A stretch of DNA of 7,703 nt, from positions 1 through 7,703 of the forward strand of contig JAQGKJ010000041.1 of NCBI GenBank assembly GCA_028290165.1, in the 5' to 3' direction. Of the stretch, positions 2,357-6,065 are shown piece by piece. Made by a program: the position numbers and the translations under genes. Within the stretch, counting starts at the first letter, position 1. The number at the start of each line of letters is the position of its first letter. This DNA is from Bradyrhizobium sp. (lineage in GTDB: Bacteria > Pseudomonadota > Alphaproteobacteria > Rhizobiales > Xanthobacteraceae). The notes beneath the pieces are model-generated. The model worked only from the letters and a program-made list of their open reading frames with translations, did no database searches and had not been told where the DNA came from.

Positions 2357-2520
2357 ATTTATCACGCTCGGCGGGAAAATTCGCCGATATGGATTGCAAT
2401 TCTTGCATAGCTTGCCAGAAACCTTATCTTGGATTCGACACTTTCGGCGCCGCCGCGATGCCTTTCCGGGCCCATTCCGCTCCAGCGCTGGCTAATTCCC
2501 TTAAGAGAGGGATCGACCCT

Positions 2521-3486
2521 ATGCCTGCCCCCATCCATGCCAAGGTGGTCATTATTGGTTCCGGCCCGGCCGGCTACACCGCGGCGATCTATGCCGCGCG
2601 CGCGATGCTTGAACCCGTGCTGATCCAGGGCATCCAGCCCGGCGGCCAGCTCACCATCACCACCGACGTGGAGAACTATCCGGGTTTTGCCGACGTCATC
2701 CAGGGCCCCTGGCTGATGGAGCAGATGGAGAAGCAGGCCGCCCATGTCGGCACCAAAATCGTCACCGATCTCGTCACCAAACTCGAACTCGGCCACCGGC
2801 CGTTCCGCCTGACCTGCGACAGCGGCGACGTCTACCTCGCCGAGACCGTCATTCTCGCCACCGGCGCGCAGGCGCGCTGGCTCGGCACCCCGTCGGAGGA
2901 GAAATTCAAGGGGTTTGGCGTATCGGCATGCGCGACCTGCGACGGATTTTTCTATCGCGGCAAGGAGGTCGTCGTGGTCGGCGGCGGCAACACCGCGGTC
3001 GAGGAAGCGATGTTCTTGACCAACTTCGCGTCCACCGTGACCGTCGTGCATCGCCGCGATCACTTCCGCGCCGAGCGCATCCTGCAGGACCGCCTGTTCA
3101 GGAACCCCAAGATCAGGGTGGTGTGGGACAGCGCCATCGACGAAATCCGCGGCACCGAGAACCCGACCAAGGTGACCCATGTCCGGCTGAAGAATGTCAA
3201 AACCGGCGCGCTGACCGAACTGCCGGCGGATGGCGTCTTCATTGCGATCGGGCATGCGCCCGCAACCGATTTGATCCGGGGCCAGATCAAGCTGAAACCA
3301 TCGGGATATGTCGAGGTGGCGCCGAACTCGACCGCGACTTCAGTCCCCGGCGTATTCGCCGCCGGCGACGTCGCCGATGAAATCTACCGGCAGGCGGTCA
3401 CGGCCGCGGGGCTCGGCTGCATGGCCGCGCTCGAAGCCGAACGCTTTATCGCTTTGCGCGCCAGCGATCGCGCGGCGGCAGAATAA
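2521..3486 (+). CDS. trxB: Thioredoxin-disulfide reductase (NADPH, FAD)
   Basis: A 321-residue flavoprotein that transfers electrons from NADPH through FAD and a redox-active disulfide to thioredoxin in the cytoplasm. Visible motifs in order: FAD dinucleotide-binding G-S-G-P-A-G (13-18), G-G-Q-L near 41, active-site C137-A-T-C140, NADPH-binding G-G-G-N-T-A (154-159), H-R-R-x-x-F-R (177-183) for the 2'-phosphate of NADPH, and the C-terminal FAD motif A-G-D (281-283) followed by R-Q-A (290-292). Length matches bacterial low-molecular-weight TrxB. The frame stays open back to 2350, but ATG 2521 is chosen: the FAD motif then starts at the usual distance and GAGAGGG lies about nine bases upstream. 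It is divergent from the Lrp/AsnC gene and followed after two bases by a LysR gene, forming an evident operon. Confidence 0.97.
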   Translation: MPAPIHAKVVIIGSGPAGYTAAIYAARAMLEPVLIQGIQPGGQLTITTDVENYPGFADVIQGPWLMEQMEKQAAHVGTKIVTDLVTKLELGHRPFRLTCDSGDVYLAETVILATGAQARWLGTPSEEKFKGFGVSACATCDGFFYRGKEVVVVGGGNTAVEEAMFLTNFASTVTVVHRRDHFRAERILQDRLFRNPKIRVVWDSAIDEIRGTENPTKVTHVRLKNVKTGALTELPADGVFIAIGHAPATDLIRGQIKLKPSGYVEVAPNSTATSVPGVFAAGDVADEIYRQAVTAAGLGCMAALEAERFIALRASDRAAAE

Positions 3487-3488
3487 TC

Positions 3489-4412
3489 ATGGCTCGAACT
3501 CGCGACGGATTTACCGATATGGACTGGGACAAGCTGAAGGTGTTTCACGCGGCGGCGGAAGCTGGGAGCTTCACGCATGCCGGAGAACAGCTTGGACTGT
3601 CGCAATCGGCGGTCTCCAGGCAGGTCAGCGCGCTGGAGCAGGAACTCTCGGTATCGCTGTTCCATCGGCATGCACGCGGTCTCATCCTGACCGAACAGGG
3701 CGACCTGCTGTTCCGCACGGCGCATGACGTGTTCATGCAGCTGCAGGCGGCGCGTGCGAAACTGACCGACAGCCGCGAGCGGCCGAGCGGCGACCTCAAG
3801 ATCACGACACCCCCGGCGCTTGGCATCAACTGGCTGATTCCGCGGCTCCATGAATTCACGGCACTTTATCCGGAAATCCGGATTACCATGCTCGTCACCG
3901 ACGAAGACCTCGACCTCTCGATGCGCGAGGCCGATGTCGCGATCCGCACCCGCAAGCCAACCCAGCCCGACCTCATTCAGCGCAAGCTGTTCTCGATCGG
4001 CTTCCACGCCTATTGTTCGCCGGAATACATCAAGCGCTTCGGAACACCGCGCACGCTCGACGATCTCGACGCGCATCGCATCATCATGCTGAGCGATTCA
4101 CAAGTTCCAACGCATTTGCAGAACCGCAGCTGGCTGATCGATGCCGGCCGCAACGGCTCTGGGCCGCGCGAGGCCTATTTCAAGGTCAATAACATCCTTG
4201 GCCTGGTGCGCGCGTGCCAGCAGGGATTGGGCATCGCGGCGCTGCCGGATTATCTGGTCGAGGAAAATAACCGCCTGGTGCAGCTGTTCGGCGAGTCCGA
4301 TTCGATCCAGCTCGACACCTATTTCGTCTATCCCGAAGAGTTGAAGACGGTGGCGCGGGTGCAGGTGTTCCGCGACTTCGTGGTGAGCAAGGCGCAGCGC
4401 TGGCCTTCGTAA
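3489..4412 (+). CDS. LysR family transcriptional regulator, coupled to trxB
   Basis: A 307-residue LysR-type regulator of normal length. The N-terminal winged HTH lies at about residues 13-70, with helix-turn-helix core S27-F-T to Q45 (L-G-L-S-Q-S-A-V-S-R-Q-V) and the wing ending L-T-E-Q-G. The effector-binding domain follows (about 100-300), including the segment I-T-T-P-P-A-L-G and the late Q-Q-G-L-G-I-A-A-L-P-D-Y. ATG 3489 is two bases after the trxB stop but has no strong Shine-Dalgarno, so translation is probably coupled to trxB. An internal ATG at 3519 (residue 11) is a real alternative and keeps the whole HTH. Co-location suggests a role in redox or thiol control, but the effector and targets are unknown. 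Confidence 0.94.
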   Translation: MARTRDGFTDMDWDKLKVFHAAAEAGSFTHAGEQLGLSQSAVSRQVSALEQELSVSLFHRHARGLILTEQGDLLFRTAHDVFMQLQAARAKLTDSRERPSGDLKITTPPALGINWLIPRLHEFTALYPEIRITMLVTDEDLDLSMREADVAIRTRKPTQPDLIQRKLFSIGFHAYCSPEYIKRFGTPRTLDDLDAHRIIMLSDSQVPTHLQNRSWLIDAGRNGSGPREAYFKVNNILGLVRACQQGLGIAALPDYLVEENNRLVQLFGESDSIQLDTYFVYPEELKTVARVQVFRDFVVSKAQRWPS

Positions 4413-4646
4413 CGTTTTGTTGCTGGAGCGGTAGCTGAGAGACTATCCGAACCTTGCGCTTCAGGAGAATTTCCGAACCAAAACCGGCGGGATTTTAGAT
4501 TCGTGTTCTTTCGAACCGAGCGTTCGCAGATGGAACGATGCTCGACTCCGAATGGGCGTCACAGCCCCCGATCTCCCCCCGATCTCCGCATGACTGACAT
4601 GCGGACCGGGTGGTTGCTGCAGGACGCCGAGGCGGACAATAGTGTT
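4413..4646. other. Gene-free stretch after the LysR gene
   Basis: No convincing protein gene is seen on either strand. Open frames crossing it have no family motif, no ribosome-binding site and odd composition. It holds an 11-bp tandem repeat (4565-4586) overlapping a hairpin TCCGCATG/CATGCGGA (4585-4592 and 4598-4605, loop ACTGA), and a weak promoter-like pair in front of the candidate small RNA: TTGCTG (4614-4619) and GACAAT (4635-4640), spacer 15. No terminator is seen between the LysR stop and 4755, so the trxB-LysR transcript may run through here. Confidence 0.45.
4565..4586. repeat. Perfect 11-bp tandem duplication
   Basis: CCCCCGATCTC occurs twice back to back (4565-4575 and 4576-4586). 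The second copy runs into the left arm of an 8-bp hairpin (4585-4605). It may be a simple slippage duplication or part of a leader structure; no function is known. Confidence 0.7.
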
Positions 4647-4786
4647 TGCACGCTGAGAGTTCGCGTTGCGCATTGTCCCCCTCCTCCAGTGGCGCGAAAG
4701 CTCAGTAATCCCTCTTGGAAGGTGATTGTGTCGGCCTCACGTGGCCAATACCTTAAGCCGGGCTCTTTCGAGCCCGGCTTTTTTTT
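4647..4786 (+). ncRNA. Candidate trans-acting small RNA with a CCUCCUCC loop
   Basis: Three successive structures end in a strong terminator. Hairpin 1: CTGAG (4653-4657) pairs with CTCAG (4701-4705) and TTCGCG (4660-4665) with CGCGAA (4693-4698), separated by a symmetric AG/AG internal loop. Its apical loop contains CCUCCUCC (4680-4687), complementary to a Shine-Dalgarno. Hairpin 2: AAGGT/ACCTT (4719-4723 and 4750-4754), ATT/AAT, then GGCC/GGCC (4733-4736 and 4743-4746), with bulges. The terminator is at 4755-4786. The start is a guess from a weak -10 (GACAAT, 4635-4640). An exposed anti-SD loop is known from some alphaproteobacterial small RNAs and from Neisseria-type CCUCC RNAs, but I cannot assign a family. 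It could also be the 3' end of the trxB-LysR mRNA, processed or not. Confidence 0.5.
4755..4786 (+). terminator. Strong Rho-independent terminator
   Basis: AAGCCGGGCTC (4755-4765) pairs perfectly with GAGCCCGGCTT (4770-4780) over 11 bp with a TTTC loop. A run of eight T (4779-4786) follows. It ends either the candidate small RNA or a long trxB-LysR transcript (343 bases after the LysR stop). Confidence 0.92.
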
Positions 4787-4878
4787 GCCGCGGAACCCTT
4801 TGCTCAGCAAACACCTTCATCATGCGCAGCGTCGGCGACGACATTGTCGGCTTCATGCATGCGGCTGCACCTATTCCG

Positions 4879-4907
4879 TTGACAGGTTTGGCGGCGCCAA
4901 TCATCAT
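4879..4907 (+). promoter_or_regulatory. Putative sigma70-type promoter
   Basis: A perfect TTGACA (4879-4884) is followed after a 17-bp spacer by CATCAT (4902-4907), a 4/6 match to TATAAT. Transcription would start near 4914 and run through the hairpin and terminator before the dapA-like gene. It is the only good -35 box seen in the 4787-5084 gap. Confidence 0.45.
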
Positions 4908-4946
4908 CCGCAGATGACCATGAGTCTCTGCATCGCAGCGTCGCCG

Positions 4947-4970
4947 AAAAAAGTCCCCGTTCCGGGGACT
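4947..4970 (-). terminator. Terminator-like hairpin on the minus strand
   Basis: Read on the - strand, AGTCCCCG-GAA-CGGGGACT is followed by a run of T (complement of the A run beginning at 4947), the full form of an intrinsic terminator. No - strand gene is seen immediately to the right, so it either blocks antisense transcription or only serves as the 5' hairpin of the + strand RNA. Confidence 0.45.
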
Positions 4971-5015
4971 GGAGATCGACGCGCGCGATAGAATCACTCG
5001 CCCAACATCGATCCC

Positions 5016-5046
5016 AAGAACCCCGCCGCGAGGTGCGGGGTTTTTT
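5016..5046 (+). terminator. Rho-independent terminator in front of the dapA-like gene
   Basis: AACCCCGC (5019-5026) pairs with GCGGGGTT (5035-5042), extendable by the AAG before it pairing with T, and the T run 5041-5046 follows. It lies 38 bp before the next start codon, so it either closes the candidate small RNA or acts as an attenuator. Confidence 0.85.
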
Positions 5047-5084
5047 ATTGTCCCGTCTCCGGCTCACCCCAAGGAGATGGACCC

Positions 5085-6065
5085 ATGACTGACCTTCGAG
5101 CCTCCGACCTTCAATCTTTGTTGCATGGCCTCTGGCTTCCGCTCGTCACCCCGTTCCGTGACGGCGAACTCGACGAGGCCACGCTGCGGCGGCTGGTGCG
5201 GCATTACGCGGCCCGGCCCGTCGATGGGCTGGTGCTCGCCGCCACCACCGGCGAAGGCCTCACACTTGAGCCCGCAGAGACCGAACGCCTTGTGTTTGCG
5301 GTCCGCGACGAGGTCGGCAGCAAGGATATTCCGATTCTCCTCGGCCTTTCCGGCAGCAACACGCGCGCGTTGCTGGACACGCTCGCGAGAACAGCGGCGT
5401 GGCCGATCGACGGATATCTGATTTCCTGCCCCTATTACTCGCGGCCGTCGCAGCGCGGGTTGGAGCTTCATTTCACCGCGCTCGCGGATCGCGCGCGTCA
5501 CCCGGTCATGCTCTACAACATCCCCTACCGGACCGGCGTCAATCTCGGCAACGAGGCGATGCTGCACCTGGCCGATCATCCGAACATCGCTGGCCTCAAG
5601 GATTGCTCGGCGAATCGCGAGCAGTCGCTCGACCTGCTGCACCGGCGCCCGCAACACTTCGCCGTGCTCACCGGCGAGGATGCCCAATATCATGAGGCGT
5701 TGGCGGACGGCGCCGACGGCGGCATTTTAGCTTCCGCGCATATCGAAACCGAAACCTTCGCGGAAATTCAGAATCTAGAGGCGGCCGGCGAGCGCGACGC
5801 CGCGCTGGCGCGTTGGCGATCGGTCGCCGATCTCACGCGGTTGCTGTTTTCCGAGCCGAGCCCGGCTCCGATCAAGTATTGGCTGTGGCGCACGGGACTG
5901 ATCGACAGCCCGGAAGTAAGGCTGCCGATGACGGAAGTGAGCGCGGATCTGGCCGCGCGTCTCGATCAGGAAATCGAACGTTGTCTCCACCGCCATAGCG
6001 AAGAGCGCAGCGACGAAGCAATCGAGAAGGCCGGAAGTCATCCGCGTACCCTCGGAATGACGTGA
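5085..6065 (+). CDS. Dihydrodipicolinate synthase (DapA) family aldolase
   Basis: A 326-residue class I aldolase/lyase of the DapA/N-acetylneuraminate lyase family (TIM barrel). Catalytic marks: T54-T55-G-E (pyruvate carboxylate binding), P-Y-Y at 116-118, Y144-N-I-P-Y-R149-T-G, and the Schiff-base lysine K172 in G-L-K-D, 28 residues after Y144 as in E. coli DapA. Y-N-x-P-x-R-T-G fits 4-hydroxy-tetrahydrodipicolinate synthase, which condenses pyruvate with aspartate semialdehyde for lysine and cell-wall synthesis, but close relatives act on other substrates. As I recall, the housekeeping dapA of Rhizobiales lies by smpB, so this may be a paralogue; no symbol is given. The start is supported by AAGGAG (5071-5076), eight bases before ATG. 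The last 25 residues come from a dispersed repeat; without it the protein is a normal 301 residues. A terminator lies in its leader. Confidence 0.9.
   Translation: MTDLRASDLQSLLHGLWLPLVTPFRDGELDEATLRRLVRHYAARPVDGLVLAATTGEGLTLEPAETERLVFAVRDEVGSKDIPILLGLSGSNTRALLDTLARTAAWPIDGYLISCPYYSRPSQRGLELHFTALADRARHPVMLYNIPYRTGVNLGNEAMLHLADHPNIAGLKDCSANREQSLDLLHRRPQHFAVLTGEDAQYHEALADGADGGILASAHIETETFAEIQNLEAAGERDAALARWRSVADLTRLLFSEPSPAPIKYWLWRTGLIDSPEVRLPMTEVSADLAARLDQEIERCLHRHSEERSDEAIEKAGSHPRTLGMT
5991..6062. repeat. Dispersed REP-like repeat fused into the 3' end of the dapA-like gene
   Basis: The segment GCGAAGAGCGCAGCGACGAA and its surroundings match the style of short intergenic repeats common in Bradyrhizobium-type genomes, recognised by their translation H-S-E-E-R-S-D-E-A-I on one strand and D-C-F-V-A-A-L on the other. 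Its ends are imperfect inverted copies: CGCCATAGCGAAGA (5991-6004) against the complement of CCCTCGGAATGACG (6049-6062), 9 of 14 matching. The gene's stop codon follows directly at 6063. Copy number elsewhere cannot be seen from this window. Confidence 0.65.

Follow-up and report, generated by a model that had tools for sequence, protein, structure and literature searches.

A conserved small RNA downstream of trxB and lsrB in Bradyrhizobium is a probable orthologue of AbcR1

What is encoded in the gap that follows a LysR-type regulator gene in Bradyrhizobium: the tail of an mRNA or a regulatory RNA in its own right? We analysed a stretch of 7,703 nucleotides (the window), in which the original prediction had placed a trans-acting RNA presenting an anti-Shine-Dalgarno (anti-SD) loop; comparative evidence points to such a molecule, and its family can now be named as AbcR. 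The observation made at 4647-4786 is real: this is a conserved small RNA, about 137 nt long and on the plus strand (4650..4786), with its 5' end inferred at 4649 or 4650. We consider it very likely that 4650-4786 is the Bradyrhizobium orthologue of AbcR1 (alpha-r15), transcribed alone under LsrB and silencing through its anti-SD loop.

The RNA follows two genes on the same strand, trxB, encoding a thioredoxin reductase (2518..3486, +; TIGR01292, 410 bits against a cut-off of 343.45), and the LysR regulator gene (3489..4412, +), whose stop codon lies 237 bases before the RNA. Among solved structures, the best match to the regulator is a 9hh1 chain (E 1e-105; the next structure, 5.4e-37), with 156 of 294 residues identical, and 49 of 61 in the DNA-binding part. 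The entry is listed merely as a LysR regulator and has cysteines at 144, 236, 244 and 273; because these positions equal the cysteine numbers given for A. tumefaciens LsrB (PMC11975290), we infer that 9hh1 is LsrB, and on sequence similarity the window protein is identified as an LsrB/VtlR orthologue. The order reported for A. tumefaciens is trxB-vtlR, followed by abcR1-abcR2 (PMC7486931). A scan with the LysR protein provided 80 Bradyrhizobium-type loci (mostly Bradyrhizobium, with a few MAGs, one Tardiphaga and one Rhodopseudomonas), and a further 80 loci of the order were taken from about 150 LsrB/VtlR places; trxB lies upstream of LsrB/VtlR in all 80 of these further loci. One draft assembly, B. 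centrolobii BR 10245, carries the full trxB-lsrB-RNA locus on two contigs (L066 and L067), which may be a true duplication or an artefact of assembly. Elsewhere in the window, at 196-1660, there are three consecutive genes for DoxX-family membrane proteins, two on the plus strand and one on the minus strand.

All 80 Bradyrhizobium-type loci match the intergenic sequence, 79 of them across the RNA; the remaining locus (L025) matches over 29 bases only, where its contig ends. In these 79 loci the RNA and an upstream box form a conserved island from about 4576 to 4786, whose mean column agreement with the window is 0.59-0.99 (ten-column bins, 4576-4785) against 0.19-0.38 outside. Across the genus the RNA is present in 260 of 265 genomes, and the five genomes that lack it are assemblies of 3.8-5.3 Mb that may be incomplete. 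A single match at E<=1e-10 is found in 258 of the 260 matching genomes and two matches in the others (G323 and G434).

The upstream box is a palindromic operator, GCATGACTGACATGC (4588..4602, without assigned strand), 13 of whose 15 columns are 98-100% conserved; its positions 4588-4600 match the LsrB/VtlR box, described as GCAT-N3-TG-N3-T (PMC7486931, PMC8844928). The two less conserved columns, 4593 and 4595, carry A in 52% and T in 90% of the loci, respectively; at 4593, the A of the window and of about half the loci is replaced by T in others shown, giving GCATGTCTGACATGC. The box of S. meliloti abcR1 is reported at -61 to -49 of the start (PMC8844928), and the window box starts 62 nt before the modelled 5' end of the RNA. 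In 39 relatives, the LysR gene and the RNA are separated by 99 to 759 nt. The best box match upstream of the RNA is exact in 13 of these relatives, deviates at one position in 14 and at several in 12, and the 27 exact or one-mismatch boxes sit at -55 to -65. The exact pattern occurs once per genome in five of six genomes and twice in the sixth; a wider regulon drawn from the palindrome was rejected, the 13 one-mismatch sites in these six genomes looking like background. Reading the palindrome as part of the RNA is also disfavoured, as the inferred promoter comes after it, and its flanks are not complementary in every locus shown.

Between the box and the RNA, we assign a putative -35 element, TTGCTG (4614..4619, +; columns 73-99% conserved), and, 18 nt after it, a putative -10 element, AATAGT (4638..4643, +; C-ATA-N-T in most loci), in which ATA and the last T are 98-99% conserved and the first base differs from that of the window in nearly all loci. 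Both hexamers are weak, and a scan for consensus promoters lists neither. The small RNA could instead be processed from the 3' end of the trxB-lsrB mRNA and have no promoter of its own, given that it lies on the same strand, 237 bases past the lsrB stop codon, and that a strong sigma-70 consensus is absent upstream. We find such processing improbable because the box and the promoter-like columns are conserved at constant spacing whereas the stretch before the box (4556-4575) is not, and because the S. meliloti homologue is described as having its own LsrB-dependent promoter (PMC8844928). The original prediction had allowed for both an RNA made alone and one cut from the trxB-LysR transcript: the constant spacing of the box, the lack of conservation before it and the variable length of the gap favour the former.

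Three models bear on the family to which the RNA belongs. R1, a covariance model built from RNA of the Bradyrhizobium clade only, matches the RNA of the window, itself among its training sequences, with 161 bits. In the 80 further loci of the order, 39 R1 matches reach E<=0.05, every one of them downstream of LsrB/VtlR and on its strand, and the other 41 loci have no match at that threshold; eight matches with E 0.087-0.99, three of them downstream on the right strand and five not, are excluded from the 39. When ten loci were rescanned, R1 and the Rfam ar15 model marked nearly the same interval in eight (ar15 being above its cut-off in five and below it in three). On tandem loci, the first copy obtains just 6.7-10.3 bits and the top match of the search lies elsewhere: taken alone, R1 does not extend far enough to catch tandem copies.

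R2, built from eight clade sequences and 24 relatives, finds matches (E<=0.01) in 129 of 297 genomes of the order and none in 168. Distances from R2 matches to LsrB/VtlR were taken over 98 genomes in which the place of LsrB/VtlR is known, 64 of them held out, that is, outside both the clade and the training set. In these 64 genomes, the best R2 match is within 3 kb of LsrB/VtlR in 40, at 3-30 kb in 14, and far away or on another contig in ten. The RNA is 3-30 kb off, often 19-27 kb, in G213, G300, G025, G138, G166, G107, G190, G285, G064, G269 and others; the displacement in 14 of the 64 suggests a shared rearrangement that would have kept an AbcR-like RNA. In four genomes with strong tandem ar15 matches, R2, which was not trained on them, finds the copies at E 2.8e-6 to 1.2e-3. 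Their loci (L202-L205) are arranged trxB-LsrB-RNA-RNA, and an exact box stands at -61 of the first copy in all four. The second copy has no exact box, and in three of the four a one-mismatch form, GCATAGCAGGCAT, precedes it, possibly a decayed or weak LsrB/VtlR site.

R3 is a sequence profile of 27 sequences that include none of the Bradyrhizobium clade, and it was run on the window and on 37 of the 80 loci. It finds the RNA of the window at 4673-4786 (26.4 bits, E 1.5e-6) and a counterpart in all 37 other loci tried (38 of 38 sources with the window). The terminator may account for some of the 26.4 bits, since its region by itself, read on the minus strand, scores 10.5 bits.

With the curated Rfam model, ar15 (RF02345; gathering cut-off 40 bits), the window is unreported at E<=5 in a scan that hides overlapping hits of the same clan, and at E<=1 there is no match at the LsrB/VtlR locus in any of the ten clade genomes among the 297 searched. 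The model exceeds its cut-off in three of 20 order loci scanned, and in 17 of the 297 genomes against the 129 reached by R2; the ar15 family seems under-described outside the Rhizobiaceae. In 40 of the 69 genomes compared, in which the place of LsrB/VtlR is known, the ar15 match at E<=1 is no more than 3 kb away from it; since E<=1 also gives sub-cut-off matches in three of 14 named control genomes, weak ar15 matches count by their place only. The models for BjrC68 (RF02353), BjrC80 and BjrC1505 have no match in the window up to E 5, nor do the other BjrC families that were presumably present in the Rfam copy scanned. A match of suhB/mmgR (RF00519) reaches 21.9 bits at 4727-4793, for a cut-off of 41 bits, and the sub-threshold matches of the window (among them Acido-Lenti-1, Betaproteobacteria toxic sRNA, anti-hemB, suhB and SorX around the terminator) were set aside as chance or likeness between terminators. 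The Rfam scan that had been put forward as a check thus returned sub-threshold matches only: Rfam alone would have missed the RNA. A Bradyrhizobium AbcR would show that the curated model misses part of the family. Because ar15 misses the window and R1 is weak on tandem copies, our claim that the RNA is an AbcR1 orthologue is built on intermediates, synteny and a common operator; it is a sequence-based assignment and not curated membership of RF02345.

The failure of ar15 could also mean that an unrelated anti-SD RNA, for example of the cuckoo type or NfeR1-like, has come by convergence to occupy the place of AbcR, and loops of the CCUCCUCCC type are described in other RNAs of the Rhizobiales (PMC3927594). 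The alignment nevertheless extends beyond the loop to a UGGAAGGUG core and its closing stem, R3 matches the RNA, and the operator and its spacing are held in common; moreover, there is one CCUCC loop here against the three or four of the RNAs described in PMC3927594. Such convergence is, to our judgement, very improbable, and orthology to AbcR1 remains the preferred reading.

The predicted fold provides the elements that this reading requires. The RNA opens with a long hairpin, SL1 (4652..4706, +), whose helix 1 consists of 11 pairs (4653-4657 with 4701-4705 and 4660-4665 with 4693-4698) around a symmetric AG/AG internal loop, and is lengthened in the predicted fold as far as 4669/4689. The loop at 4676-4688 has a mean unpaired probability of 0.96 in the computed fold and holds aSD1, the tract CCCCCUCCUCC (4677..4687, +), the proposed targeting site, within which CCUCCUCC occupies 4680-4687. 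Between SL1 and the bulged hairpin SL2 (4719..4754, +) lies an aSD2-like UCCCUCU (4709..4715, +) that aligns with UUCCCCUC of relatives; this stretch (4709-4717) is half buried, with an unpaired probability of 0.46. Because aSD1 is open (0.96 against 0.46) and pairs more strongly in test pairings with SD oligomers (-9.6 to -10.7 kcal/mol against -6.6 to -8.0 for aSD2), the models make it the likelier working site. The RNA ends with an intrinsic terminator and its U run (4755..4786, +), in which 4755-4765 form 11 pairs with 4770-4780.

Much of this architecture had been anticipated: helix 1 with its AG/AG internal loop and the apical anti-SD loop lie exactly where they were drawn, and the 11-bp terminator followed by eight T was found, the eight T being 4779-4786 with the first two inside the stem. 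The hairpin drawn at 4719-4754 fares less well. It is foldable, and appears in the best fold (-56.7 kcal/mol) when 4709-4717 is held open, but it is absent from the minimum-energy fold (-60.8 kcal/mol), which has a small hairpin at 4707-4727 and another at 4728-4751; SL2, seen in constrained folds, competes with these two. That the region is more ordered than chance would make it is borne out by 4640-4795: its folding energy is -64.4 kcal/mol, whereas 200 dinucleotide shuffles average -48.1 (sd 4.03; z -4.04) and not one of them folds as well.

Conservation supports the fold in part. From the 66 distinct clade sequences, we aligned the window with 35 chosen below 95.5% identity (alignment A1), leaving out L025, whose contig ends inside the element. 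In these 36 diverse sequences, SL1 has 17 consensus pairs with 96.6% of cells paired and six pairs changed on both sides, and the terminator has 96.5% of cells paired and two pairs changed on both sides, so that covarying base pairs, which the original prediction proposed to seek, are present in both. All five measures exceed those of all 500 shuffles and of all slid versions, bearing in mind that the structure was derived from the alignment on which it was tested, which favours it over the slid controls, and that kinship among sequences can by itself beat shuffles without any structure. The stretch 3' of SL1 is nearly invariant and the pairs of SL2 hardly vary in the clade, which is why covariation does not decide how the RNA folds after SL1; in an alignment across the order, where SL1 and SL2 align badly at such distance, the consensus fold keeps eight pairs only and speaks neither for nor against the hairpins. 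The CCCCCUCCUCC loop itself is 98-99% invariant, and variable stems around an invariant C/U-rich loop are the pattern to be expected of a base-pairing RNA. Loss of the helices in relatives that keep trxB-LysR had been named beforehand as grounds to give up the prediction: the helices are kept and the claim stands.

A strong intrinsic terminator does end the region, and one could see here a mere terminator region or mRNA tail with chance hairpins; with all 137 nt and the box conserved, SL1 covarying and the shuffles folding worse, we regard this as hardly tenable. A short protein-coding gene has next to no credibility and is largely refuted, for although the window has a 162-codon open frame running through the region (4503-4991), the three frames meet stops inside the RNA in 59, 66 and 60 of the 66 distinct clade sequences, whose lengths differ by non-multiples of three.

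Beyond the RNA, a second conserved non-coding stretch (4879-5084, +) precedes a dapA-family gene (5085-6065), and its part 4940-5084 is matched in 66 of 80 loci. It comprises a promoter-like TTGACA-17-CATCAT (4879-4907), a hairpin (4952-4970) which, read on the minus strand, also resembles a terminator, and a terminator on the plus strand some 40 nt ahead of the ATG, after which a nearly invariant GTCCCGTCTCCGG could pair with the Shine-Dalgarno region GGAGATGGAC. In this stretch Rfam gives a sub-threshold match to Trp_leader only. The stretch resembles either an attenuator leader for the dapA-family gene or a further small RNA.

How would the AbcR1 orthologue act? LsrB/VtlR, made from the gene just upstream, would bind the palindrome at 4588-4602 and activate a promoter starting near 4649-4650, as the identity and the spacing of the box suggest. 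The short RNA would stop at its own terminator, recognisable in the sequence, and is predicted by the computed fold to present CCCCCUCCUCC in the open loop of SL1. By analogy with tested homologues, CCCCCUCCUCC could then pair with the ribosome-binding sites of many mRNAs, mainly those of ABC transporters and related metabolism, and lower their translation and stability. In S. meliloti, LsrB is reported to activate the abcR1 promoter, as seen with reporter fusions and gel shift, and aSD1 and aSD2 of AbcR1 to base-pair with their target mRNAs, thereby silencing genes of transport and metabolism (PMC8844928); expression, LsrB activation and targets in Bradyrhizobium are transferred from such homologues.

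The regulator itself differs from the studied one. C144 and C273 of A. tumefaciens LsrB are proposed to form a disulfide pair (PMC11975290), and in none of the 160 aligned loci (80 Bradyrhizobium-type and 80 other loci of the order) do the two occur together. At position 144, 79 Bradyrhizobium-type loci have V and one has A, while the 80 others have V, I or L. At position 273, all 80 Bradyrhizobium-type loci have V, and five of the 80 others have C. C236 is kept in all 80 Bradyrhizobium-type loci and C244 in none, leaving C236 as the sole survivor of the four cysteines. Judging from these sequences, in which the C144/C273 pair is missing, the thiol switch cannot operate here as published, and the signal sensed by LsrB outside the studied lineage becomes a directly testable question. 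A tentative and rather doubtful extension is that the AbcR circuit has been rewired in Bradyrhizobium, with one AbcR, one dominant anti-SD loop beside a partly closed second site, a near-unique palindromic operator and an LsrB that answers another signal; if so, LsrB would act almost solely through one RNA. In Rhizobiaceae and Brucella, AbcR is known to restrain nutrient uptake globally, at the post-transcriptional level. With an AbcR of its own, Bradyrhizobium, the genus of the soybean symbionts, would gain a candidate for the master regulator of transport, one whose activator can be named and whose operator can be tested. By title and abstract opening, in a search that covered few subscription papers, we found no published Bradyrhizobium AbcR.

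The closest known system is AbcR1/AbcR2 (RF02345) of Sinorhizobium, Agrobacterium and Brucella, which also follows trxB-LsrB/VtlR with a box at about -61, and which shares with the Bradyrhizobium RNA an SL1 with an anti-SD loop, a C/U-rich stretch between SL1 and SL2, an intrinsic terminator and a UGGA(A/G)G core. There are nevertheless a number of differences: (i), SL1 is longer in Bradyrhizobium and the curated model is blind to the RNA; (ii), the loop is CCCCCUCCUCC in place of CUCCUCCC, and the core AUCCCUCUUGGAAGGUG in place of UUCCCCUCUGGA(A/G)G; (iii), the Bradyrhizobium RNA is nearly always single copy, whereas AbcR1/AbcR2 have two or more, and its regulator is without C144 and C273. 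For alpha-r15 in Rhizobiaceae and Brucellaceae, several copies per genome are always reported (PMC3712013). Within the genus, the RNA may be BjsR1 of B. japonicum USDA 110, a match made by description alone: BjsR1 is reported to be conserved in Bradyrhizobium and Rhodopseudomonas, to have a predicted RpoD-type promoter and to be Northern-positive, and is called a new family (PMC5082802). SmelA075/SmelA099 and NfeR1 of S. meliloti are alike in exposing anti-SD motifs for ribosome-binding sites, but are described with three or four such motifs, against one CCUCC loop and a different neighbourhood for the window RNA (PMC3927594, PMC8844928). SmelA075/SmelA099 are defined by a CCUCCUCCC loop in every one of their three or four hairpins, and the window RNA has one such loop. 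As for the circuit, a LysR regulator also controls an adjacent small RNA in GcvB/GcvA and OxyS/OxyR, whose RNAs are unrelated to that of the window, and GcvB also targets transporter mRNAs. GcvB has been described as a functional analogue of AbcR (PMC7143759).
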